Shown: positions 5,744 through 25,899 of the stretch, one piece after another
Layout: each line of letters starts with the position of its first letter
Numbering within the stretch: the stretch's first letter is position 1
Assembly (NCBI GenBank): GCA_903920215.1
Contig: CAIXLG010000029.1
Location: forward strand, 1 to 40,802
DNA: 40,802 bases
Direction: 5' to 3'
From: an uncultured Chlorobiaceae bacterium
Lineage (GTDB): Bacteria; Bacteroidota; Chlorobiia; Chlorobiales; Chlorobiaceae
Translations under genes and position numbers: made by a program
Notes under the pieces: generated by a model
Seen by the model: the letters and a program-made list of their open reading frames with translations, nothing else
What the model was told of the DNA's origin: nothing
Databases searched by the model: none

Positions 5744-6409
5744 ATCCGTTTAATGGTTTTCCATAGCAACAATCATCAACTCTTCGTAATAAGAACGGTT
5801 AAAGATGCCGATGCGTTCCCGCTCCGGCCGACAACAGTCACTCATGCAGTGAAAATCGTGATTAAGCTCCTGTGTCGAAGGATGCCTGGAAAATCAGAAG
5901 CACAGTATAACGAGTTTTGCTATTATACGTTATCACTAACCCTGGTGCTCATCTTCCACTGCCTGTGTGGTACAATAGGTCGATTTAAGGAAATTAATTC
6001 GCCTGTGACGTCCAACTGTTCAGGCCGAAGAAGCGACGATGCTCATGATTCTCGACAAGTACCGCGTCAGGAAACCGGGTTATGCAAAACGGAATTCTGT
6101 ACACAGGCAAATTTTTTTTTTGTTTTTGACTATATGACGGATGGGACTTATGGGAGTAATAACAGACGAGGGTTTATGGTATGAGGGGAGAAAAGAGATC
6201 CCTCACTTCGTATCTGGATGACAAGGGGATTTGTATCGGAATTACTTTTTAAGATTATGAGGAATTTTTTGGGGCAGGTTACCTGAAAGGGATGTTGCCG
6301 AAGTCGAGCAATTGAGACTTTGGGTTAACCTGAAAAATCAGGGTTAGGGTAAAATGATTTACAGCGGTAGTTCTAAAGTGAGCGCATCTAAAAAGTATTT
6401 GACCTGTGA
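5744..6409. other. Gene-poor stretch with possible gene relics
   Basis: No convincing gene is seen in these 666 bases. Two short frames have protein-like composition: around 6028-6110 (EEATMLMILDKYRVRK, then KPGYAKRN) and around 6270-6345 (GRLPERDVAEVEQLRLWVNL, then KNQG and a TAG stop). Both are cut off by stops upstream and may be relics of lost genes. At 6195-6225 there is one copy of the dispersed GATCCCTC...GGATGACA sequence also found near 23030 and 40752. A longer plus-strand frame from 5513 is the antisense shadow of the HPF-like gene plus low-quality sequence. Confidence 0.4.
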
Positions 6410-16846: not shown

Positions 16847-18109
16847 ATGGATATTGAGAGCTGTTATTTTTCTTCACTTTTTCATGGAGGCGCAAAGCGC
16901 TGTTCTGTTCTTTCTCTGCTTTTTTTTCTCTTCTCTCTTTTTTCTGCATCGCGTGTTTTAGCTGAACCATTACTCTGTGGGATTGACCGCCTTGAAGCGA
17001 CAGGATTCAGTGAGCTATCTGGCTTGAAAGTTGGGCTCATTACCAATGTTGCCGGCGTGAGCCGAAAGGCGGAACCGGATTATGCCGTCATGCTTCGAAG
17101 TGGAGTGAGGCTGAAGTTTATTATGGCACCTGAGCATGGATTTTTAGCTGATATTGAAGCTGGCATAGGAGTCGGTGGTTCAGTTGTTCATGATACCCTT
17201 CCTGTCTTTTCGCTCTATGGGACTTCAAAAAAACCGGATATCCGGCAGCTGAAAAGTATTGACATGCTGCTTTTTGACCTTCAGGACATTGGTGCACGCT
17301 GTTATACCTATATCTCGACCATGAACAGTGCCATGCAGGCTTGTGAGGCGGCAGGTATACCCTTTATGGTTCTTGATCGCCCCAATCCGGTTATTCCACT
17401 TTCTCCCTCAGGGTTTGTGCTGGCGCCGGGATATGAGTCGTTTGTAGGGGCTGTCGATATTCCCTTTATTCATTCCATGACAGTCGGTGAAATTGCCACC
17501 ATGCTGAAAGAACGCAAGTATAAACGACTTGATCTGAGAGTGGTATCGATGTCGGGGTACAATCGGAAGCGGTTTGCCGATGAGTATCCGGGCTTCAGGT
17601 TTATCTCTCCTTCACCGAATATCAGAAGTGTTGAGACGGCAATAGTCTATCCTGCGACAGTATTTCTTGAAGCGACAACCGTAAGCGAAGGGCGTGGGAC
17701 AGATGCTCCCTTCGAGCAGCTTGGTGCTCCGTTTATCAATGGGCGTGAACTTGCGGCTCTTCTCAGTCAGTATAAACTACCCGGAGTTTTGTTTAATGCT
17801 GTTGTGTTTCAGCCAGCGTCGAGCAAGTTCAAGGGTGAACGCTGCGAGGGAGTGAAGCTTTCAATTACAGACAGAAAAAAATTCATCCCTTTCAAAACCG
17901 GCGCAGCGATTCTTCTTGCACTGCAGCATCTCTATCCAGAGAAAACAGCTCTTCAGAAAGAAAATGTTTTTTTCGACAGGCTTGCAGGTACTCCATTGTT
18001 CCGGGAGATGATCTGCAAACAAGTGCCGCTTGACGAAATTATGGAGGAAAGCCGGAGGCAGATAGAGCAGTTCAGCCGGACTGCTCCTGTAAAGCTGCTC
18101 TATCAGTGA
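16847..18109 (+). CDS. Exported DUF1343/NamZ-type exo-beta-N-acetylmuramidase
   Basis: Member of the DUF1343 family, which includes NamZ, an exo-acting glycosidase that removes N-acetylmuramic acid from peptidoglycan fragments. The frame opens at GTG 16790, but ATG 16847 is preceded by AGAGGT and gives a better signal peptide: a basic AKRC followed by SVLSLLFFLFSLFSASRVLA. Family blocks are LKVGLITNVAGVSR, FIMAPEHGFLADIEAG, MLLFDLQDIGARCYTYISTM, PFMVLDRPNP, FISPSPNIRSVETA and EGRGTDAPFEQLGAPF. The protein is full length. It probably works in the periplasm in cell-wall recycling. It converges with the STAS gene, one base apart. Confidence 0.88.
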   Translation: MDIESCYFSSLFHGGAKRCSVLSLLFFLFSLFSASRVLAEPLLCGIDRLEATGFSELSGLKVGLITNVAGVSRKAEPDYAVMLRSGVRLKFIMAPEHGFLADIEAGIGVGGSVVHDTLPVFSLYGTSKKPDIRQLKSIDMLLFDLQDIGARCYTYISTMNSAMQACEAAGIPFMVLDRPNPVIPLSPSGFVLAPGYESFVGAVDIPFIHSMTVGEIATMLKERKYKRLDLRVVSMSGYNRKRFADEYPGFRFISPSPNIRSVETAIVYPATVFLEATTVSEGRGTDAPFEQLGAPFINGRELAALLSQYKLPGVLFNAVVFQPASSKFKGERCEGVKLSITDRKKFIPFKTGAAILLALQHLYPEKTALQKENVFFDRLAGTPLFREMICKQVPLDEIMEESRRQIEQFSRTAPVKLLYQ

Positions 18110-18110
18110 G

Positions 18111-18725
18111 CTAAAGGTCAGCTTTTTTCGGGCGCCCTCTTTTTTTTGATCCAGGCTCTTTCGCTGCAGGTGGTTCGGAGAGTTCCGGTTGTTCGGTTAT
18201 GTCATCAGCTTCAAGCATGTGTTCGTCAAGATGTTCCTCAAGATGTTCCTCAAGATGAGCATCAAGATGGGCTTCATTGAGTTCCGGTATGGCAATAAGA
18301 TCAAGGTCATCGCTCAGTTCATCAATAGCTTCATCGCCGGGTGCCTGAGATTTTCCTTTTGAACCCCGCTTGTTTTTCATTGCCGGTTCAATGAGTGTTA
18401 TTACTTCATTGATAGATGAAAAAATGTAGAGCTGTTTGTCCAGATTCGTCAATTTCAGCAGATCCTTGATTTGTTTGCCAAGAGAGACAAAAATCGCCAG
18501 CCCGCCTGATTGATTTGATAGCTGATGAGCGAGCAGCATTGAACTGATGCCGCACGAATCAATGGCTTTTACCTGGGAAAAATCTATGATGAGGTTTTTG
18601 CTTTGGTCCCTATTGACTATTTCATCAATAGCCACCCTGAACGAGTCGCCATGACGAAAATCAAGCACCTGTTCCTCGATTTTCATGATGGTTAACTCTT
18701 TGCGGCTCGATACGGAGTAATTCAT
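18111..18725 (-). CDS. STAS-domain (anti-sigma antagonist type) protein with His-striped and AT-hook-like tail
   Basis: The N-terminal ~110 residues form a STAS domain as in anti-sigma factor antagonists; the loop AIDSCGISSM holds the Ser (S57) that is normally phosphorylated. The rest is unusual. An acidic linker (DELSDDLDLIAIPELNE) leads to a helix with His at 153, 157, 161, 165 and 169, exactly every fourth residue (HLDAHLEEHLEEHLDEH), encoded by imperfect 12-bp DNA repeats. A Pro/Glu stretch then ends in KKRGRPKK, an AT-hook-like motif. A second possible start is ATG 18686 (MKIEEQ), which removes 13 residues. No kinase or sigma-factor partner is nearby. DNA or metal binding is inferred only. 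Confidence 0.85.
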   Translation of the reverse strand: MNYSVSSRKELTIMKIEEQVLDFRHGDSFRVAIDEIVNRDQSKNLIIDFSQVKAIDSCGISSMLLAHQLSNQSGGLAIFVSLGKQIKDLLKLTNLDKQLYIFSSINEVITLIEPAMKNKRGSKGKSQAPGDEAIDELSDDLDLIAIPELNEAHLDAHLEEHLEEHLDEHMLEADDITEQPELSEPPAAKEPGSKKRGRPKKADL

Positions 18726-18824
18726 AAACCTATACTTAATAACTGTAAAAAATTGCTATACAAGTATTTAACGGCATTTCTTGTTGGCAGGGGAGAGGAT
18801 GATCAACAAGACATTTTATCTTAT

Positions 18825-19098
18825 GCTGAAGCCTTTACTCCATAAGGTAAAAAAAAAGCCCACAGTTAATATTTATTTTCGGCAGTAAATATTTTGTTCT
18901 CGCCCTCCCGAAAAAAAACTAACCATCATCCCTGATAGCCTCAAATATTCAAAACTCTGATATCTGATCATAATTACGTATATTTCACAGTTCCGCATAG
19001 TAACAACCTGTTCTTTGGGTCTGATAGCTTTAAATGCTCTTGCTACTGAATGTGAGTGAAAAAAAGAGGAAAGCGGTTGGGTATAAAAAAGAAATGCT
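18825..19098 (+). repeat. 274-bp direct repeat, copy A
   Basis: Matches 21080-21353 over its whole length, with frequent substitutions but equal total length (roughly three quarters identical by eye). It starts at GCTGAAGCC and ends at the GTATAAAAAAGAAATGCT segment. A conserved palindrome, AATATTTA (18868-18875) with TAAATATT (18886-18893), occurs in both copies. The 40 bp before it weakly resemble the 3' end of the structured RNA described at 20975. It ends about 105 bp before the nucleotidyltransferase-like gene. I see no gene in 18726-19194. Confidence 0.85.
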
Positions 19099-19203
19099 AA
19101 TGGATTTGCTGCTCTTTACGGTAATAATACGCTTTGCGGGTACAAATGTAACGAATTATTTTCGTATTATAAGAAGTTTCAGCAACCAAACTGGGTGGCA
19201 GTT

Positions 19204-19791
19204 ATGACGATAGCTGAGGGAACTATCCCGACGTGGAACTCCATCGGAGTGCTGCCTCCCATACGCCCACTACAAAAGGGCCATTCGCCTGATCGTTCTC
19301 CATATATCGCTAATCTGTTGTCAGTTTTTGACCGTTTTGCTATTTCTGAGGAACGCATAACGATACTTCGCGGGTTACTTCAGTTTCGGAGTGAGATGCA
19401 TCAGGCAGGAATAACTTCAGGTTTTCAATGGATAGATGGAAGTTTTTTGGAAAATGTCGAACTTACGGAAGGTCGTCCTCCTCGCGATGTGGATGTCGTA
19501 ACTTTTTTTCACCTTCCAGAAGGAGAATCACAAGCCAGTTTCGCTGGCAGATTTGGGGCATTATTCGAACAAGAGGTTCTTAAGGACAAGTATTTTGTAG
19601 ACTCCTATAACGTTGTACTTGGGGATCCAATGGATTCTTTAAAGGTTAAAATTATTTCATATTGGTACAGCATGTGGTCTCATCGCCGAGACGGTTTGTG
19701 GAAAGGATTTGTTCAAGTTGATCTTGATCCTTCGCAGGATATTGATGCGAGCGCAATTCTGGATAGTGACGGAGGACTGACTTATGAATAA
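19204..19791 (+). CDS. Nucleotidyltransferase-like protein (DUF6932-like), first gene of a two-gene module
   Basis: A 195-residue protein with a polymerase-beta-type nucleotidyltransferase signature: G79-S80-F81 in WIDGSFLEN, then D95 and D97 in RPPRDVDVVTFF. The spacing fits the hG[GS]x9-13DhD pattern. It resembles the uncharacterised DUF6932 group, assigned here from memory of the GSF...DxD layout. GTG 19195 is in frame, but ATG 19204 has GGGTGG 6 nt upstream and is preferred. The stop overlaps the next start by 8 bp, so the two proteins are probably made together. Such enzymes in TA or defence loci may modify RNA or proteins with nucleotides; the target here is unknown. It lies between two 274-bp repeats. 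Confidence 0.7.
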   Translation: MTIAEGTIPTWNSIGVLPPIRPLQKGHSPDRSPYIANLLSVFDRFAISEERITILRGLLQFRSEMHQAGITSGFQWIDGSFLENVELTEGRPPRDVDVVTFFHLPEGESQASFAGRFGALFEQEVLKDKYFVDSYNVVLGDPMDSLKVKIISYWYSMWSHRRDGLWKGFVQVDLDPSQDIDASAILDSDGGLTYE

Positions 19792-20695
19792 TGAATACGA
19801 AACGATATCCTCTGAGATTAAGGATTTGGAAGCGCTTATTTCTTCCGTTCCCCAGGGGAATGTTATTGATAAGATGAGTCTTGAGTCTCGGCTTCGGAGG
19901 GCGAATAATATTTTATCTCATTTGCCGCCACAGTACACTGCACCACGAGCGCAATTGATTTTTCGGGGAAGACCTGTGTCTGGTATACATGGTATTTCCG
20001 CTGATTTTGCTTCCAGAGCGGCATGCGCGTTTTCGGATGCCTTTAGCGCTGTTGCTGCGGGGTTGAGCGACAGGTTAAGGCCTAGTGGCCCAATTCCTGA
20101 TAAAGACAAGAATCAGTTGCTGATTACCGGAATTGCTATAGGTTCTTTTGGTTTTGACTTCGAGCTTCCTGACAAGGGGCAGAATAAGTTTTCGGAATCT
20201 GAAGAAACAAGGGCAGCGATAAATAAGATTAGCGCTTTGTTTCGGTTGGCGGCTGAAGGGAGTGATGACGATCTCGCAGAGCTTGTCGAAGAAGTTCAGC
20301 CCAGAGCTGTAAAGAAAATTCATGAGTTTCTGGATGTTCTCGTCAGGTATCACGCATGGTGTGGGTTGTCGTATGAAAAGACTTCCTTTTGTTATACGGA
20401 TTATGAACAACTCCAGTTTTCCGCTGCTCGCTTGAAAGATGAAAATATTCGGGAGACGCAAGGTACTTATCGTGGAGAATTTCAAGGAGTTCTCCCGACA
20501 GGACGGACGTTTGAATTCAAGCTGCTTGATCAAGATAGTTTGATTAGTGGTAAGGTGGATTCTTCAATTGAAGACCCAGACGTTTTAAACCGGGATTGGT
20601 TGCATCACCCTGTGACAGTAACACTAAACATAATGCAGATCGGGGAGGGGCGCCCGAGATATACGTTGATGTCAATGACCGATTTGATCCGGTAG
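19784..20695 (+). CDS. Partner protein of the nucleotidyltransferase-like module, unknown function
   Basis: A 303-residue protein I do not recognise. The N-terminal ~50 residues look like a helical pair (ISSEIKDLEALISSVPQGNV, then a basic MSLESRLRRANNILSHLP). An FRGRPVSGIHGISADFASRA segment follows, then a mixed region with LLITGIAIGSFGFDFELPD and an acidic helix (GSDDDLAELVEEVQPRAVKK). The C-terminal third (RGEFQGVLPTGRTFEFKLLD) looks like beta strands. There is no signal peptide or membrane helix. The start ATG overlaps the upstream gene by 8 bp, with GGAGG about 8 nt before it. Tight coupling suggests one complex, perhaps the target-binding or neutralising partner of the nucleotidyltransferase-like protein; this is inference. 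Confidence 0.6.
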   Translation: MNNEYETISSEIKDLEALISSVPQGNVIDKMSLESRLRRANNILSHLPPQYTAPRAQLIFRGRPVSGIHGISADFASRAACAFSDAFSAVAAGLSDRLRPSGPIPDKDKNQLLITGIAIGSFGFDFELPDKGQNKFSESEETRAAINKISALFRLAAEGSDDDLAELVEEVQPRAVKKIHEFLDVLVRYHAWCGLSYEKTSFCYTDYEQLQFSAARLKDENIRETQGTYRGEFQGVLPTGRTFEFKLLDQDSLISGKVDSSIEDPDVLNRDWLHHPVTVTLNIMQIGEGRPRYTLMSMTDLIR

Positions 20696-20974
20696 GGGCT
20701 CCAAAGTGGCGCAAAGAGGATTTTGAGGAAGCTGGTGTATCAGAAAAAAAAGAGAGGCCGCTGATTTGCTACGCTGGTTCAGCAGGCCGAGACCTCGATA
20801 GATTCAAAGCCGATAGGCCATGAATTCACTTACAGTATAAGGGATATATTATCGATGCCAAGGGGAAAAATATTTCTCATTATAGTGGCCCCCGATGATT
20901 AGACAGCAGTTTGAGTTTTAAACTGGCCCAAAAAAGGAGCAGGTAATGACTCATAACCCTTGATAGGAAACGTT
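20696..20974. other. Spacer after the two-gene module
   Basis: No gene is supported here. A 75-codon frame (20596-20823) overlaps the end of the 303-residue protein and continues to a TGA at 20821-20823, but it has no ribosome site or family resemblance. The rest is AT-rich and leads into the first copy of the structured RNA. No clear terminator is visible. Confidence 0.4.
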
Positions 20975-21087
20975 CTATTGCTTACACTATGAGTAATAAT
21001 ACCTGCCATGCTTCCCACTTGAACAGCGCACCCGGGCAGGTTTTCGCTTTTTACAGGGTTTTGTCTTTTAATCTCAGAAGCTGAAGC
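20975..21087 (+). ncRNA. Predicted structured RNA, copy B (orphan)
   Basis: About 113 nt nearly identical to 21545-21657. Two stems can be drawn. P1 pairs ATTGCTT with GAGTAAT (20977-20999). P2 pairs ACCTGCC with GGCAGGT across a loop containing CGCTTCCCACTTGAACAG-like sequence. A U-rich 3' part (TTTTCGCTTTTTACAGGG) follows. Almost all differences from the other copy lie in P1, and they keep it paired. Unlike copy C, this one is not followed by an abiF gene but runs directly into 274-bp repeat copy B. It is read here on the plus strand by analogy with copy C. Confidence 0.6.
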
Positions 21088-21353
21088 CCTTACTTTCAAA
21101 GGTAAAAAAGCCAACAGTTAATATTTATTTTCCGCAGTAAATATTCTGTTTTCGCCCTCCAGAAAAAACCCATCAATCTTACCTGACAGCCGAAAATATC
21201 AAAGCCCCTTTTCCTTATATTTCAATTACGTATATTTCGCTTCGTTATCCTGTAGAGACCTGTCCTGTGGGCGTGATAGCTTCAAATGTTCTTGCTGCCG
21301 AATGTGAGGACAAAGAAAAGAGGGAAGCGGCTGGGTATATAAAAAGAAACGCT
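21080..21353 (+). repeat. 274-bp direct repeat, copy B
   Basis: Counterpart of 18825-19098. The conserved palindrome is AATATTTA 21120-21127 with TAAATATT 21138-21145. Its first bases overlap the end of structured RNA copy B at the GAAGCTGAAGCCC junction. The two copies bracket the nucleotidyltransferase-like gene pair. Between 21354 and 21544 I see only a short frame from ATG 21427 that runs into the next RNA copy, which I do not call. Confidence 0.85.
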
Positions 21354-21544
21354 CCCAACAAGTCGGAAGCGTCAGACCGGAGATACTATCTCTGGTGATG
21401 TTATAGTTCAAATGTAAGCTTTAGAGATGAATAAAACCATGAAAAAGAAAGAGTTCAGGTCTATGTTGATGGATTTAACCTCTACTTTGGTATGCTTGAA
21501 GCAAGGTATTACTTCTTGTAAAAGAAAACTTGACAGCGAACCCG

Positions 21545-21657
21545 CTATTGCTTACATTGTAGGCAATAATACCTGCCACGCTTCCCACTTGAACAGCGCA
21601 CCCGGGCAGGTTTTCGCTTTTTACAGGGTTTTGTCTTTTAATTTCAGAAGCTGAACC
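21545..21657 (+). ncRNA. Predicted structured RNA, copy C (AbiF-associated)
   Basis: Second copy of the 113-nt element, ending 2 bp before the abiF start codon. P1 is ATTGCTTAC-ATT-GTAGGCAAT (21547-21567), longer and better paired than in copy B. P2 (ACCTGCC...GGCAGGT) and its loop are identical to copy B except one base. From established comparative work, genes of the AbiF family commonly have a conserved structured RNA directly upstream (abiF RNA motif), and the position fits. It could be an RNA antitoxin or a leader that controls abiF. I have not checked it against a covariance model. Confidence 0.7.
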
Positions 21658-21659
21658 CC

Positions 21660-22556
21660 ATGTTATACAGTAAACCCGCAGTATCAATCCCTGACCAAAT
21701 CACAAAACTGAAAGCAAGGCATCTTGCCTTTGGTGACGAAGCATTTGCTATACATTGCCTCTCCAATATCAGTTATTACCGGCTTAGAGCTTATACCTAT
21801 CCTTTCCAGGATAACACGCTCCCGGATCATCCGTTCGTTGTTCCAGTCACCTTTGAGCAGATCATAGAGCTCTATGTTTTTGACCGTAAACTGAGGGGCT
21901 TGGTGTTTGATGCAATGGAGAAAATTGAAATTGCCATGCGAACACAAATTATCCACCAATGGGCAATGCCATATGGTAGCCATTGGCAGTTAAACGAGAC
22001 CCTTTTCAGGGATACGAATCGTTTTAACAACCAGATTGTCTCGTTACAAACAGAAATCAGTCGTTCCAACGAAACGTTTATAGAGCATTACAAGAAGACC
22101 TATACCGAACCTGTTGATCCGCCATCATGGATGAGTCTTGAGGTGAGCAGTTTTGGCTTGTTGTCTCAAATGTTCAGGAATCTGAAAAAAAGTCCTGAAA
22201 AAATCGCAGTGGCAAAGCATTTCGGGCTAAACAATATTGACCTGCTCGAAAACTGGATGCTCTGCTTCAGTCATATCCGCAACACTTGTGCGCATCACGG
22301 TCGCTTATGGAACCGTAGGTTGACGGCACATATCACATTGCCAAAAAACCCCTCAAACCCATTTATCCAAAACAGAAAAATTTTACCGTACAAGCCCTAC
22401 GCAGCGTCATGTTGTATGCAATACATTTTGCAAAACATCAGCTCCGATACTTTATTTAAGGACGGTCTGAAAGCGCTTATGAAAACCTGTCCCCTTAAAC
22501 AGGAAAAGGAAATGGGTTTCCCGGAAGATTGGCGATCAGAATCTTTTTGGAAATGA
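21660..22556 (+). CDS. AbiF/AbiD-family HEPN abortive-infection protein (Abi_2)
   Basis: A 298-residue protein of the Abi_2 family, which includes phage abortive-infection proteins AbiD and AbiF. N-terminal features are KPAVSIPDQITKLKARHLAF and LSNISYYRLRAYTYPFQ, both typical. DRKLRGLVFDAMEKIEIAMRT is the central helix. The HEPN ribonuclease motif RX4H is intact as R207-H212 in HIRNTCAHHGRLWNR. HEPN proteins of this kind cut RNA and cause growth arrest on phage infection. AbiF-like proteins have been proposed as relatives of the ancestor of Cas13. Start is ATG 21660, directly after structured RNA copy C. No protein antitoxin is adjacent, which favours RNA control. Confidence 0.88.
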   Translation: MLYSKPAVSIPDQITKLKARHLAFGDEAFAIHCLSNISYYRLRAYTYPFQDNTLPDHPFVVPVTFEQIIELYVFDRKLRGLVFDAMEKIEIAMRTQIIHQWAMPYGSHWQLNETLFRDTNRFNNQIVSLQTEISRSNETFIEHYKKTYTEPVDPPSWMSLEVSSFGLLSQMFRNLKKSPEKIAVAKHFGLNNIDLLENWMLCFSHIRNTCAHHGRLWNRRLTAHITLPKNPSNPFIQNRKILPYKPYAASCCMQYILQNISSDTLFKDGLKALMKTCPLKQEKEMGFPEDWRSESFWK

Positions 22557-22631
22557 TACAGTAGAAGAGAGAGGGACCCCATACCAAATCCCGATCCAGT
22601 TTTGGAAAAACGACTATTAACTATCACTGAA

Positions 22632-22988
22632 ATGAACGAACTGAAAAATATTCATCCGGGCGAGGTTTTGATGGAGGAGTTTTTAATTCCATTAGAAATA
22701 TCGGCTTACAGGCTTTCCAAAGATATCGGGATTCCTCAGACCCGGATATCCGAGATATTGAAAGGGAAGAGACGTATTACGGCAGACACGGCATTGCGTC
22801 TCTCACAATATTTCGGGAATTCCGCAAAGTTCTGGTTAGGTCTGCAGGCTGACTATGATATTGAGGATGGGATGCGGAGCAAGAAAGCTGAAATAAATTC
22901 TATTCTTCACTACGCTATACCACAAGTACCTTGTGTTGTATGTGTCCCTTCTTCAACCCCAGGGAGCGCTGAACCCCAGCTCGGCTGA
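22632..22988 (+). CDS. higA: HigA-family antitoxin (solitary)
   Basis: XRE-type helix-turn-helix antitoxin of the HigA group. The conserved start NIHPGEVLMEEFLIPLEI is followed by the helix-turn-helix (SAYRLSKDIGIPQTRISEIL, then KGKRRITADTALRLSQYF) and the group's NSAKFWLGLQADYDIE block. A TTG at 22602 is in frame, but ATG 22632 (MNELKNIHPGE) fits the family. The last ~25 residues (PQVPCVVCVPSSTPG onward) are not family-like, so the original stop may have been lost. No higB toxin is found upstream, where it usually lies; abiF is the upstream neighbour. A fragment of the same gene recurs at 24334. Confidence 0.85.
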   Translation: MNELKNIHPGEVLMEEFLIPLEISAYRLSKDIGIPQTRISEILKGKRRITADTALRLSQYFGNSAKFWLGLQADYDIEDGMRSKKAEINSILHYAIPQVPCVVCVPSSTPGSAEPQLG

Positions 22989-23040
22989 AAGAAAGTTCTG
23001 AGGACTGAATGAGGCACACAAGACAGATCCCTCACAGGAG

Positions 23041-23080
23041 TTCGGGATGACAAGGGGGATGACAAGGGGGATGACAAGGT
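23041..23080 (+). repeat. Tandem GGGATGACAAGG repeats
   Basis: Three tandem units with a 12-bp period (ATGACAAGGGGG) follow CAGATCCCTCACAGGAGTTC. Related single copies are at 6195-6225 and 40752-40802 in this window, so this is a dispersed element. The space 22989-23372 otherwise holds a miaA fragment and a repeat end, described separately. Confidence 0.75.
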
Positions 23081-23089
23081 ACTCACTCC

Positions 23090-23182
23090 TCAGAGCTCAG
23101 AACTCAGCACCCTCTCCACAACCCCGGCCAGTTCACTCTCATTTTCAGGAGCATCCACCCAGGTAACAGTAAGTCTGTTTTT
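23090..23182 (-). pseudogene. Fragment of the miaA 3' end
   Basis: On the minus strand this stretch encodes KNRLTVTWVDAPENESELAG, then VVERVLSSEL and a TGA stop. The first 19 residues match the C-terminus of the intact MiaA encoded at 24389-25324 (FFKNRLTVTWVDAPENESEL). The match covers roughly 60 bp and then ends abruptly. It has no start and is a relic of duplication. Confidence 0.85.
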
Positions 23183-23193
23183 CCGTCCCGACC

Positions 23194-23230
23194 CGCCTCT
23201 ATTTATTGCTGAGATAAAAGATGGAAGAAA
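23194..23230 (+). repeat. Dispersed hairpin repeat, left-end fragment
   Basis: CCTCTATTTATTGCTGAGAT and the following AAAAGATGGAAG match the left end of the copy at 32306 (CCTCTATTTACTCGCTGAGA, then GTAAAAGATGGAGG). The hairpin part is missing. It directly abuts the miaA fragment. Confidence 0.65.
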
Positions 23231-23372
23231 AAAAAATATCAAATCTTTTCCATTCTTTATGAGATAAAAACACTCTCAATTTATTGTGACGAGGTAAATT
23301 TTTGATAATCAAATTTTTTTATGCATCCTATTTGAATATATAGATGTTACCTATAGTTAACCTTTTTCCGAA

Positions 23373-23951
23373 ATGATGCCAAAATCGCTCCTGTTCGTTT
23401 TGTGCTCAACTCTTTTTTTCGGGACAGCAAGAGCAGAAAATCTGGAAATTCAAAGAGTGCGTGTTGCTGCGGAACAGGGGGATGCTCCGGCTCAATGTAA
23501 TCTCGGTTTTCTGTACCATCAAGGTAGAGTTGTCGAAAAAAATTATGATCAAGCCGTGAAATGGTTTCGGCTTGCAGCTCAGCAAGGAAATGCCCAGGCA
23601 CAAAGTAATCTCGGGTTGATGTACCTCTCTGGTAAAGGTGCCAAACAAAGCTATATCGATGCCGTGAAATGGTTTAGGCTTGCCGCTATGCAAGGAAATG
23701 CAGATGGGCAGGACAATCTGGGAGAGATGTATCTTTATGGTTGGGGGGTCAAACAAAACGATGCCGAAGCCGTGAAATGGTTTAAACTTGCTGCTGAACA
23801 GGGCGAAGCCGATGGTCAGTTTAATTTAGGTTTTATGTATACCAGTGGTTGGGGTGTCAAGAAAAATGATGCCGAAGCACTGAAATGGTACCGCCTTGCT
23901 GCAAGGCAGGGAACCATAGCTGCTCAAAACAAGTTACAATCAATGAAATAA
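23373..23951 (+). CDS. Exported Sel1-repeat (TPR-like) protein
   Basis: A 192-residue protein with an N-terminal signal peptide (MMPKSLLFVLCSTLFFGTAR, then AEN) and four Sel1-like repeats of about 36 residues (roughly 38-73, 74-109, 110-145 and 146-181). Each repeat has the pattern AxxGxAxxQxNLGxMYxxGxGVKQNxxxAVKWFRLAA. Sel1 repeats form alpha-solenoids for protein-protein binding in the periplasm or at the surface. Start is ATG 23373 or 23376. It is alone between duplicated higA/miaA fragments and may have arrived or been kept with that rearrangement. Its partner is unknown. Confidence 0.88.
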   Translation: MMPKSLLFVLCSTLFFGTARAENLEIQRVRVAAEQGDAPAQCNLGFLYHQGRVVEKNYDQAVKWFRLAAQQGNAQAQSNLGLMYLSGKGAKQSYIDAVKWFRLAAMQGNADGQDNLGEMYLYGWGVKQNDAEAVKWFKLAAEQGEADGQFNLGFMYTSGWGVKKNDAEALKWYRLAARQGTIAAQNKLQSMK

Positions 23952-23964
23952 AAAGAAACTACAG

Positions 23965-24012
23965 GGCAACTTTATTGACTCGCTGAGCGTAAGAGATGGA
24001 AGGTAAAACTTA
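23965..24012 (+). repeat. Dispersed hairpin repeat, left-end fragment
   Basis: GGGCAACTTTATTGACTCGC and the following TGAGCGTAAGAGATGGAAGG match the left end of the 32306 copy (GGGCACCTCTATTTACTCGC, then TGAGAGTAAAAGATGGAGGG). The hairpin is absent. It lies 13 bp after the Sel1 gene stop. Confidence 0.65.
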
Positions 24013-24101
24013 AAGGAGATATCAGCTCCATATTCAGCAATAGCTGTATAAACTGAGTAATTAATTTCTGTCAAGTGCTTAATTTCAATAAATTGATCAT
24101 C

Positions 24102-24218
24102 ATGAAAAAAATTATTGTTCTCGCTATTATTTGTTTATTTGCCGGTTGTACCAGTTCACGTTATCATGGCGAAAGTTATAACGATCGTCCTTATCATGAT
24201 CATGAAGCTCGTAACTGA
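24102..24218 (+). CDS. Small lipoprotein (38 residues), possibly truncated
   Basis: From ATG 24102 the frame encodes MKKIIVLAIICLFAGCTSSR and then a short His/Tyr-rich tail. LFAGC is a standard lipobox with the lipidated Cys at 16, so the product would be an outer- or inner-membrane lipoprotein. The stop TGA is at 24216-24218. The same frame continues open after it (RDQDGQCYSLNIYYSTGVS) to another TGA, and this part also looks protein-like. A nonsense mutation may therefore have shortened a 58-residue protein. No function is recognisable. Confidence 0.55.
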   Translation: MKKIIVLAIICLFAGCTSSRYHGESYNDRPYHDHEARN

Positions 24219-24333
24219 CGGGATCAAGATGGTCAGTGTTACTCACTGAACATTTATTACAGCACCGGTGTGAGCTGACTACTCTGTAGATATGCGGAAA
24301 AGGTACGGTTAAGTTGCGAAGCCGGCTGATTCG

Positions 24334-24384
24334 CAATATTGCGGGAATTCCGCAAAGTTCTGGTTAGGTCTGCAGTGTGACATG
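24334..24384 (+). pseudogene. Fragment of higA
   Basis: Encodes QYCGNSAKFWLGLQCD, which matches QYFGNSAKFWLGLQAD of the higA at 22632-22988. About 40 bp are nearly identical, including GGAATTCCGCAAAGTTCTGG. No start or helix-turn-helix part is present. It lies 5 bp from the miaA stop, so the higA-miaA junction occurs twice in this region. Confidence 0.85.
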
Positions 24385-24388
24385 TTCG

Positions 24389-25324
24389 TTATACACATTT
24401 CCCGGCCAACCGGTCGACAAGCGATGCCAGTTCACTCTCGTTTTCAGGAGCATCCACCCAGGTAACAGTAAGTCTGTTTTTAAAAAAAGTCAACTGGCGT
24501 TTTGCATAATTGCGGGTATGCTGTTTTACGAGATCGATTGCGGTTACGAGATCGATCTTTCCGTCAAAGTATTGAAACAGTTCCTGATAGCCCACCGATT
24601 GCAGTGCCGGTATTTTATCGTTTGCAAGCATTGCCTGGTATTTATGATGAAGCGTTGCTGCTTCCCGAGGAAGGCCTGCCTCCAGCATCTTCTCAGTGCG
24701 TTCATTGATGCGTTTATAAAGGGTTTCGCGGGGCATTGAAAGACCCCAGACAAGAAAGCGAAGCCCTGTTTCTGCTTTTCCCTGTGCCTGCAGTTCCGTA
24801 ACACTTTTTCCTGTTATTTCGATGATTTCAAGGCTTCGTATGAGCCGCTGTGTCTTTGTTGCATCAAGGGTGGCAGCCTGCTGAGGGTCTTTTTGGAGAA
24901 GTTTTTTATAGAGCTCCTCTTTTCCGATGATCTCAAGTTCCTGAAGGAGCTTTTTCCTGATTTCCGGGTTTCCGGGAGGCAGCTCTGCAAAGCCTTCAAG
25001 CAGCCCTTCAAGGTAGAGCGTTGATCCACCGGTAACCACTACTGGTAAACCCCTGCTCTGTATTTCTCGGATACGTTCTCTCGACTCAATGGCAAAGTCG
25101 CCCGCAGTAAAAGGCTCTCCGATATTTTTTTCATTGATAAAATGATGGTGTATATCGCGGAGCGATTCGAGGGAAGGCTTTGCTGAACCTATGTCGAGCT
25201 CGCGGTATATCTGGCGGGAATCGGCGGAAATGATTTCTGCTCCGATTTTTTTTGCCAGTGCGTGAGCGAGTGCTGATTTGCCGGATGCGGTGGGGCCGAG
25301 GATAACATGGACGGGTGTCAGCAT
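24389..25324 (-). CDS. miaA: tRNA dimethylallyltransferase
   Basis: Adds a dimethylallyl group to A37 of tRNAs that read codons starting with U. The P-loop is GPTASGKS at residues 10-17 when the start is ATG 25324; a longer frame to 25387 lies inside maf and is rejected. Other family blocks are ISADSRQIYRELDIGSAKP, HHHFINE, VVTGGSTLYLEGLLEG, TKTQRLIRSLEI and ALQSVGYQELFQYF, followed by VKQHTRNYAKRQLTFFKN. At 311 residues the length is normal. It overlaps the maf stop by 7 bp and so is translated from the same transcript. Its 3' end is duplicated at 23090. Confidence 0.96.
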   Translation of the reverse strand: MLTPVHVILGPTASGKSALAHALAKKIGAEIISADSRQIYRELDIGSAKPSLESLRDIHHHFINEKNIGEPFTAGDFAIESRERIREIQSRGLPVVVTGGSTLYLEGLLEGFAELPPGNPEIRKKLLQELEIIGKEELYKKLLQKDPQQAATLDATKTQRLIRSLEIIEITGKSVTELQAQGKAETGLRFLVWGLSMPRETLYKRINERTEKMLEAGLPREAATLHHKYQAMLANDKIPALQSVGYQELFQYFDGKIDLVTAIDLVKQHTRNYAKRQLTFFKNRLTVTWVDAPENESELASLVDRLAGKCV

Positions 25325-25899
25325 AAAAGCGGTTTTAAGGCCTTGCTGACCCTCGAAAGCGGAAGACCGACAACATTGTAGTAACACCCTTCAATACGTT
25401 TGATATAGCAGGCCATAAGAGGATCCTGAATGCCATAGGCACCAGCCTTGTCGTAGGGCTTTACGGAAAGAAGGTAGCGCTGGATTTCACTGTCCGTCAT
25501 CGGCTCAAATTCAACGGTAGTAACAACACATTCCGTGTAGGTTTTTTCGCCAAAGAGGAGTACAAATCCGGTATAGACCCGATGAGACCGATTTTGCAGG
25601 CTTTTGAGCATGTTGAACGCATCATCGAATCCGGCAGGTTTACCAAGAATCTGGTTTCCTTTAGCAACGACGGTATCAGCTGCGAGAATAACAGCCTTGC
25701 GCTTGTCACCTGCTATCACTGCAGCAGCAGCTTCTGCTTTCGTTAAAGCGATTTTTGTGATGTTATCTTCAAGAGAGAGTGACGGGTCAAAAATTTCCTC
25801 CGTTTCAACTGCAAGGGTTTCAAACGGGATATGCATTAATGAGAGTATATCCTTTCTTCTCGGTGACTGTGATGCAAGGATAAGCGTTGGTTTAGCCAT
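25318..25899 (-). CDS. maf: Maf-family nucleotide pyrophosphatase
   Basis: Hydrolyses non-canonical or modified nucleoside triphosphates (house-cleaning), in the cytoplasm. The family start LASQSPRRKDIL is at 8-19. AADTVVAKGNQILGKP carries the catalytic Asp, and the C-terminal blocks AGAYGIQDP and GCYYNVVGLPLSRV are intact. At 193 residues it is full length. It is 12 bp downstream of the symporter gene and overlaps miaA, so it is the middle of a minus-strand operon. The Maf-versus-YhdE substrate subgroup is not resolved. Confidence 0.94.
   Translation of the reverse strand: MAKPTLILASQSPRRKDILSLMHIPFETLAVETEEIFDPSLSLEDNITKIALTKAEAAAAVIAGDKRKAVILAADTVVAKGNQILGKPAGFDDAFNMLKSLQNRSHRVYTGFVLLFGEKTYTECVVTTVEFEPMTDSEIQRYLLSVKPYDKAGAYGIQDPLMACYIKRIEGCYYNVVGLPLSRVSKALKPLLC

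Follow-up and report, generated by a model that had tools for sequence, protein, structure and literature searches.

Several described systems bear on the gene pair analysed here. In the HEPN/MNT system, MntA adenylylates and blocks HepT (PMC7641770). In PD-T4-10, PD-T4-10B is toxic and PD-T4-10A neutralises it, and this overlapping pair provides abortive-infection (Abi) defence against T-even phages (PMC9519451). PDC-M63AB is a phage-defence candidate of PADLOC; in its one published test, a deletion from E. coli NILS69, no defence against 10 phages could be measured (PMC12409345), and no demonstrated activity for any PDC-M63 system was found in the literature. The position downstream of the cI repressor, namely the rexAB or bstA site, is recognised for lysogen-expressed defence (PMC8585504).

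In this study, a two-gene unit was investigated in the window, which is the whole analysed stretch of 40,802 nucleotides from an uncultured Chlorobiaceae bacterium. Judged by sequence comparison, the pair is a diverged relative of PDC-M63AB. Three points are new here: gene 2 is tied to the PD-T4-10B toxin family, the antitoxin is of another type than in PD-T4-10, and the pair often lies next to cI.

The gene pair and its neighbours

Gene 2 starts at 19784 and gene 1 ends at 19791, both on the forward strand, resulting in an 8-bp overlap (ATGAATAA). The preliminary description had placed this unit between two diverged 274-bp direct repeats, and this arrangement was confirmed from coordinates and alignment. 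The features of the locus are as follows:

18825..19098, + strand: 274-bp repeat copy 1 (R1), native flank of the STAS gene, outside the system
19099..20699, + strand: block common to the window and the relative L005, the unit actually moved (89% identity over 1602 bp)
19195..19791, + strand: gene 1, DUF6932 nucleotidyltransferase, predicted neutraliser (PF22014, PDC-M63A, PHROG 9194, model)
19784..20695, + strand: gene 2, 303-aa predicted toxin/effector (PHROG 18731, model, BFVD, family profile)
20959..21089, + strand: 131-bp repeat copy 1, flanking R2 and the NYN remnant
21080..21353, + strand: 274-bp repeat copy 2 (R2), within the block upstream of abiD, outside the system
21437..21510, + strand: remnant of the start of an NYN-domain-like gene (VQVYVDGFNLYFGMLEA), truncated (intact 211-aa versions in L149 and L154)
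21529..21659, + strand: 131-bp repeat copy 2, directly 5' of abiD
21660..22556, + strand: AbiD/Abi_2 abortive-infection gene, downstream neighbour of the pair (PF07751, E = 2e-56; PADLOC AbiD, 7e-71)
22602..22988, + strand: HigA antitoxin gene, downstream neighbour (TIGR02607, E = 8e-31)

Gene 1 has two candidate start codons, GTG at 19195 and the likelier ATG at 19204. It matched DUF6932 (PF22014, E = 2e-27; 96.8 bits against a Pfam gathering cut-off of 27), PHROG 9194 and PADLOC PDC-M63A (E = 6.2e-11). A GSF motif at residues 82–84 (19438–19446) is accompanied by PxDxD at residues 96–100 (DxD at 19486–19494) and a third aspartate, D136, at 19600–19602; GSF, D98 and D100 were conserved in 51/51 relatives and D136 in 50/51. 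The AlphaFold2 model, built with a 51-sequence alignment, had a mean pLDDT of 92. Its best PDB folds were minimal nucleotidyltransferases, namely 2rff (probability 0.97) and the MNT antitoxin 7ae9, with CCA-adding enzymes, CdnC and 1wot lower down; individual E-values were weak (0.02 and above) and unrelated folds were interspersed, and the best matches and the motif agree. Gene 1 is predicted to be a polymerase-beta-type nucleotidyltransferase with a complete active site, and the GSF...DxD signature of the preliminary description is thereby borne out by the motifs and the predicted fold together. No paper on DUF6932 was found in the literature.

Gene 2 was previously unannotated and had been called unrecognised, and it indeed matched no Pfam family above the cut-off; NCBIfam returned nothing for either gene, and a PDB sequence search with both gene profiles gave no meaningful match. 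A SnoaL match (3e-4) fell below the curated cut-off and was judged spurious. Gene 2 matched PHROG 18731 (E = 9e-59). In its predicted structure (mean pLDDT 90), N-terminal helices (residues 2–46) are followed by a central domain with an invariant GSFG (residues 120–123, 20141–20152) and an OB-like C-terminal beta-domain. OB-folds are among the Foldseek matches of this last domain (probability above 0.9, weak E-values). Of the viral folds (BFVD), the top match was a DUF6575 protein (E = 3e-11), and no DUF6575 match was obtained for gene 2 or its relatives. HEPN matches were absent from the 47 gene 2 relatives and from the listed gene 2 fold matches. Both genes are under purifying selection.

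Among the neighbours named earlier, higA stands, and the gene taken for abiF belongs to Abi_2/AbiD. No HigB gene was seen adjoining higA, and the same applies to the relative L003. An Rfam search of 18000–22600 returned nothing. The intact 211-aa NYN-domain-like genes in L149 and L154 lie downstream of the same sequence as in the window, where only the first codons are retained before a copy of the 131-bp repeat cuts the gene off. Short non-coding stretches (20881–20950, 21329–21522 and 21514–21660) are found again at numerous unrelated sites in the genus. An internal higA fragment (22803–22853 and 24331–24381, 92%) and a fragment of the miaA 3' end (23108–23182 and 24407–24481, 88%) are each duplicated on either side of a Sel1-repeat gene; these duplications are traces of earlier insertions or of tandem duplication.

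Repeats and the unit that moved

The 274-bp repeats had been read as marking a cassette that was moved or duplicated. They are real and beyond chance, being 77% identical with 14 gap positions; their local alignment scores 135, and none of 300 first-order shuffles exceeded 17. The homology with the relative L005 (G227) also begins right after R1, at 19099, as that reading would have it. However, L005 matched the window at 19099–20699 and nowhere outside, at an unrelated location that is a type I restriction locus, and its pair is present without either repeat. The same chromosomal locus in L003 (G094) carries R1 and the pair and lacks R2 and abiD, and in L142 (G145) it has a single repeat-like copy adjoining the STAS gene, with neither the pair nor abiD. 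No transposase or terminal inverted repeats were seen. Because the pair occurs without them, the repeats fail to delimit a cassette; the repeat-bounded mobile cassette was rejected on these comparative loci, and we regard it as very improbable.

In L147, miaA comes almost immediately after the STAS gene. The comparison of L005, L003, L142 and L147 marks the STAS–miaA interval as an insertion hotspot of the genus, with R1 as its native flank and R2 having come or stayed with the abiD block. Across this interval (18111–25387 in the window), other genomes differ in which of higA, the pair and abiD they carry. R1 differs from its orthologues by about 20% and from R2 by about 23%, so that the duplication that gave R1 and R2 is old rather than the trace of a recent insertion. 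The 131-bp repeat pair (20959–21089 and 21529–21659, 89%), which straddles R2, was absent from the preliminary description.

Linkage, relatives and loss of the pair

Almost every locus recovered has the two genes linked, where homologues that were usually unlinked would have spoken against a functional unit. In the viral collection, gene 1 alone as the query recovered 57 loci, and each of them has a gene 2 homologue as the next gene downstream, in the same orientation and in most cases overlapping. Gene 2 alone recovered 24 loci, every one with gene 1; the two sets overlap and include near-duplicates. Six plasmid records contained gene 1, four of them with the pair; the other two adjoin IS6-type genes, namely L208, where an IS6-like gene follows the intact transferase and gene 2 is absent, and L209, where the transferase is broken. 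Intact gene 2 without a transferase was not found among the loci surveyed. At 5963–7767 of L194 (G014), a divergent DUF6932 gene (GGFTSD...DVDV) overlaps by 4 bp with the gene for a 328-aa partner, which has a GSIVIGL motif and is unmatched by the gene 2 profile; this locus is possibly a third branch of the family.

The surroundings of the pair are those of prophages and defence loci. Of the 43 non-redundant viral loci, 28 have a co-oriented cI-type repressor no more than about 0.9 kb upstream, and in two E. coli prophages cI is directly followed by the pair. Searches of isolated-phage records with the window gene 2 and with each of the two L096 prophage genes found no match, which places the pair in prophages and not among the phage isolates sequenced. 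In Chlorobiota, type I restriction operons adjoin or contain the pair in L159 and L190 (in L190 together with Abi_C and AAA_13 genes), and a type III-like modification gene lies by it in L186. The same-genus genomes sampled hold intact or contig-split copies in seven cases and broken copies in five. The proposed neighbourhood analysis for co-occurrence with defence genes thus found restriction and Abi loci in Chlorobiota and a frequent position downstream of cI in viral copies; with this context and the linkage, a toxin–antitoxin or phage-defence module, as suggested earlier, stays the best predicted reading.

A profile of the 47 gene 2 relatives matched the DUF6575 protein of an Oscillatoria plasmid (L196) at residues 162–399 with 49.9 bits, against a maximum of 4.3 bits in 1000 shuffles. 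In hhalign, the gene 2 profile matched five PD-T4-10B-like proteins (probability 94%, P = 1e-7), the C-terminal homology being scored on these proteins rather than on the E. coli PD-T4-10B sequence. The B protein of L204 matches PD-T4-10_B at 4–135 and PDC-M63B at 161–415. From the L196, hhalign and L204 matches, gene 2 is judged to correspond to the C-terminal module, about two thirds, of PD-T4-10-like B proteins. Gene 2 had no direct match to the PD-T4-10_B profile, and the link runs via L196, L189 and L204. PD-T4-10_A is matched by the gene upstream of the DUF6575-like protein in L189, L196 (9e-5), L203 and L204 (1.2e-28), but not in L205, the fifth locus. Gene 1 gave an hhalign probability of 0.2 against PD-T4-10A and no PADLOC match to PD-T4-10_A. 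Further PD-T4-10B relatives were not found among the viral contigs. In L205, a Chlorobiaceae locus (616–2350), the PD-T4-10_B-like protein (PDLC04024, 7e-8) has an upstream 152-aa partner with an 8-bp overlap, which is unrecognised by PD-T4-10_A.

The loss of the pair follows a pattern among relatives. G221 (L186) carries it intact; at the same place in G200, G205 and G218, deletions have removed the transferase body and the central domain of gene 2 (about residues 63 to 184), and the rest of gene 2 stays in frame. The loss of the putative neutraliser is accompanied by that of the putative toxic domain in these three genomes, which count as one case because of their shared ancestry. The resulting 183-aa gene 2 derivative keeps its reading frame in all three (L183, L184 and L185) and is perhaps a remnant, or else an antidote-like protein existing on its own.

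Proposed function and comparison with known systems

We hold, at about even confidence, that the pair is a toxin–antitoxin-like abortive-infection module with gene 2 as the toxin and the gene 1 nucleotidyltransferase as its neutraliser. Gene 1 would be translated first and coupled to gene 2 via the 8-bp overlap. Gene 2, with its coiled-coil N-terminus, GSFG central domain and OB-like C-terminus, would be a growth-arresting toxin, which the active transferase would silence, most simply by nucleotide transfer onto gene 2 in the manner of MNT acting on HEPN. We infer that phage infection would disturb this silencing, whereupon gene 2 would be freed and the infected cell would stop. In favour of the proposal are the linkage of the two genes, the toxin family to which gene 2 is tied, the predicted fold and catalytic residues of gene 1, the loss pattern, the setting in prophages and restriction loci, and the purifying selection. 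Several observations weigh against this proposal: PDC-M63AB of E. coli NILS69 showed no measurable defence, gene 2 lacks the DUF6575 domain in which the toxicity of PD-T4-10B could reside, it matches neither the PD-T4-10_B profile directly nor HEPN, and the double deletions count only once.

The polarity could instead be reversed, with the nucleotidyltransferase as an effector acting, for example, by tRNA nucleotide addition or signal synthesis, and gene 2 as a sensor or inhibitor whose OB-like domain binds nucleic acid. Transferase toxins such as AbiEii and MenT exist, and the OB-like domain of gene 2 and the conserved catalytic residues of gene 1 agree with such roles; however, the toxic member among the relatives of gene 2 is PD-T4-10B, the transferase occupies the upstream, antitoxin-like position, and an intact orphan transferase is tolerated (L208) where an intact orphan gene 2 was never seen. 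We consider this arrangement unlikely. An accessory of prophage maintenance or lysogeny, serving addiction or repressor-linked regulation without phage defence, would account for the frequent position downstream of cI and for the negative defence result of PDC-M63AB in its native host, with the Chlorobiaceae copy being stranded. The Chlorobiota pair, however, occurs in non-prophage restriction and Abi loci and is under purifying selection, and we find this account similarly doubtful.

If the toxin–antitoxin-like model is taken further, a widespread GSFG and OB-like toxin module of PD-T4-10B-like proteins would be paired with two or more unrelated kinds of antitoxin (PD-T4-10A, and DUF6932 acting by nucleotide transfer), representing a second, non-HEPN type VII toxin–antitoxin system and a prophage defence at the rexAB site; we propose this tentatively, with somewhat less than even confidence. 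The database candidate family PDC-M63 is now tied to an experimentally proven toxin family, PD-T4-10B, and the model predicts the identity of the toxic gene and the means of its silencing. Neutralisation by nucleotide transfer may not be confined to HEPN toxins, and the model, if true, would explain why many prophages retain the pair beside cI.

The pair resembles PDC-M63AB in having two adjacent, prophage-borne genes with A before B. Gene 1 matches PDC-M63A, as do 10/10 relatives scanned; 6/47 gene 2 relatives match PDC-M63B (best 2.3e-6), and the window gene 2 does not. The earlier statement that no described system has this pair therefore holds in part, since PDC-M63AB is a relative and the window version is diverged, with gene 2 unrecognised by PDC-M63B. 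With RexAB and BstA the pair shares its frequent position directly downstream of a prophage cI repressor, and its proteins are set apart from theirs by name and domain only. The likeness to HEPN/MNT (type VII toxin–antitoxin) lies in a small nucleotidyltransferase, here a predicted fold with GSx/DxD and a third aspartate, adjacent to a larger protein, and in the predicted neutralisation via nucleotide transfer; unlike that system, the partner is not HEPN, and gene 1 is a DUF6932 protein with a longer GSF...PxDxD motif and a C-terminal extension. Compared with PD-T4-10 (Vassallo et al. 2022), a nucleotidyltransferase unrelated to PD-T4-10A stands in the place of that antitoxin, and the N-terminal DUF6575 domain is missing from gene 2. 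Shared with that system are the two-gene layout with the small gene upstream, overlapping or nearly so, and an apparent homology between gene 2 and the C-terminal region of PD-T4-10-like B proteins.
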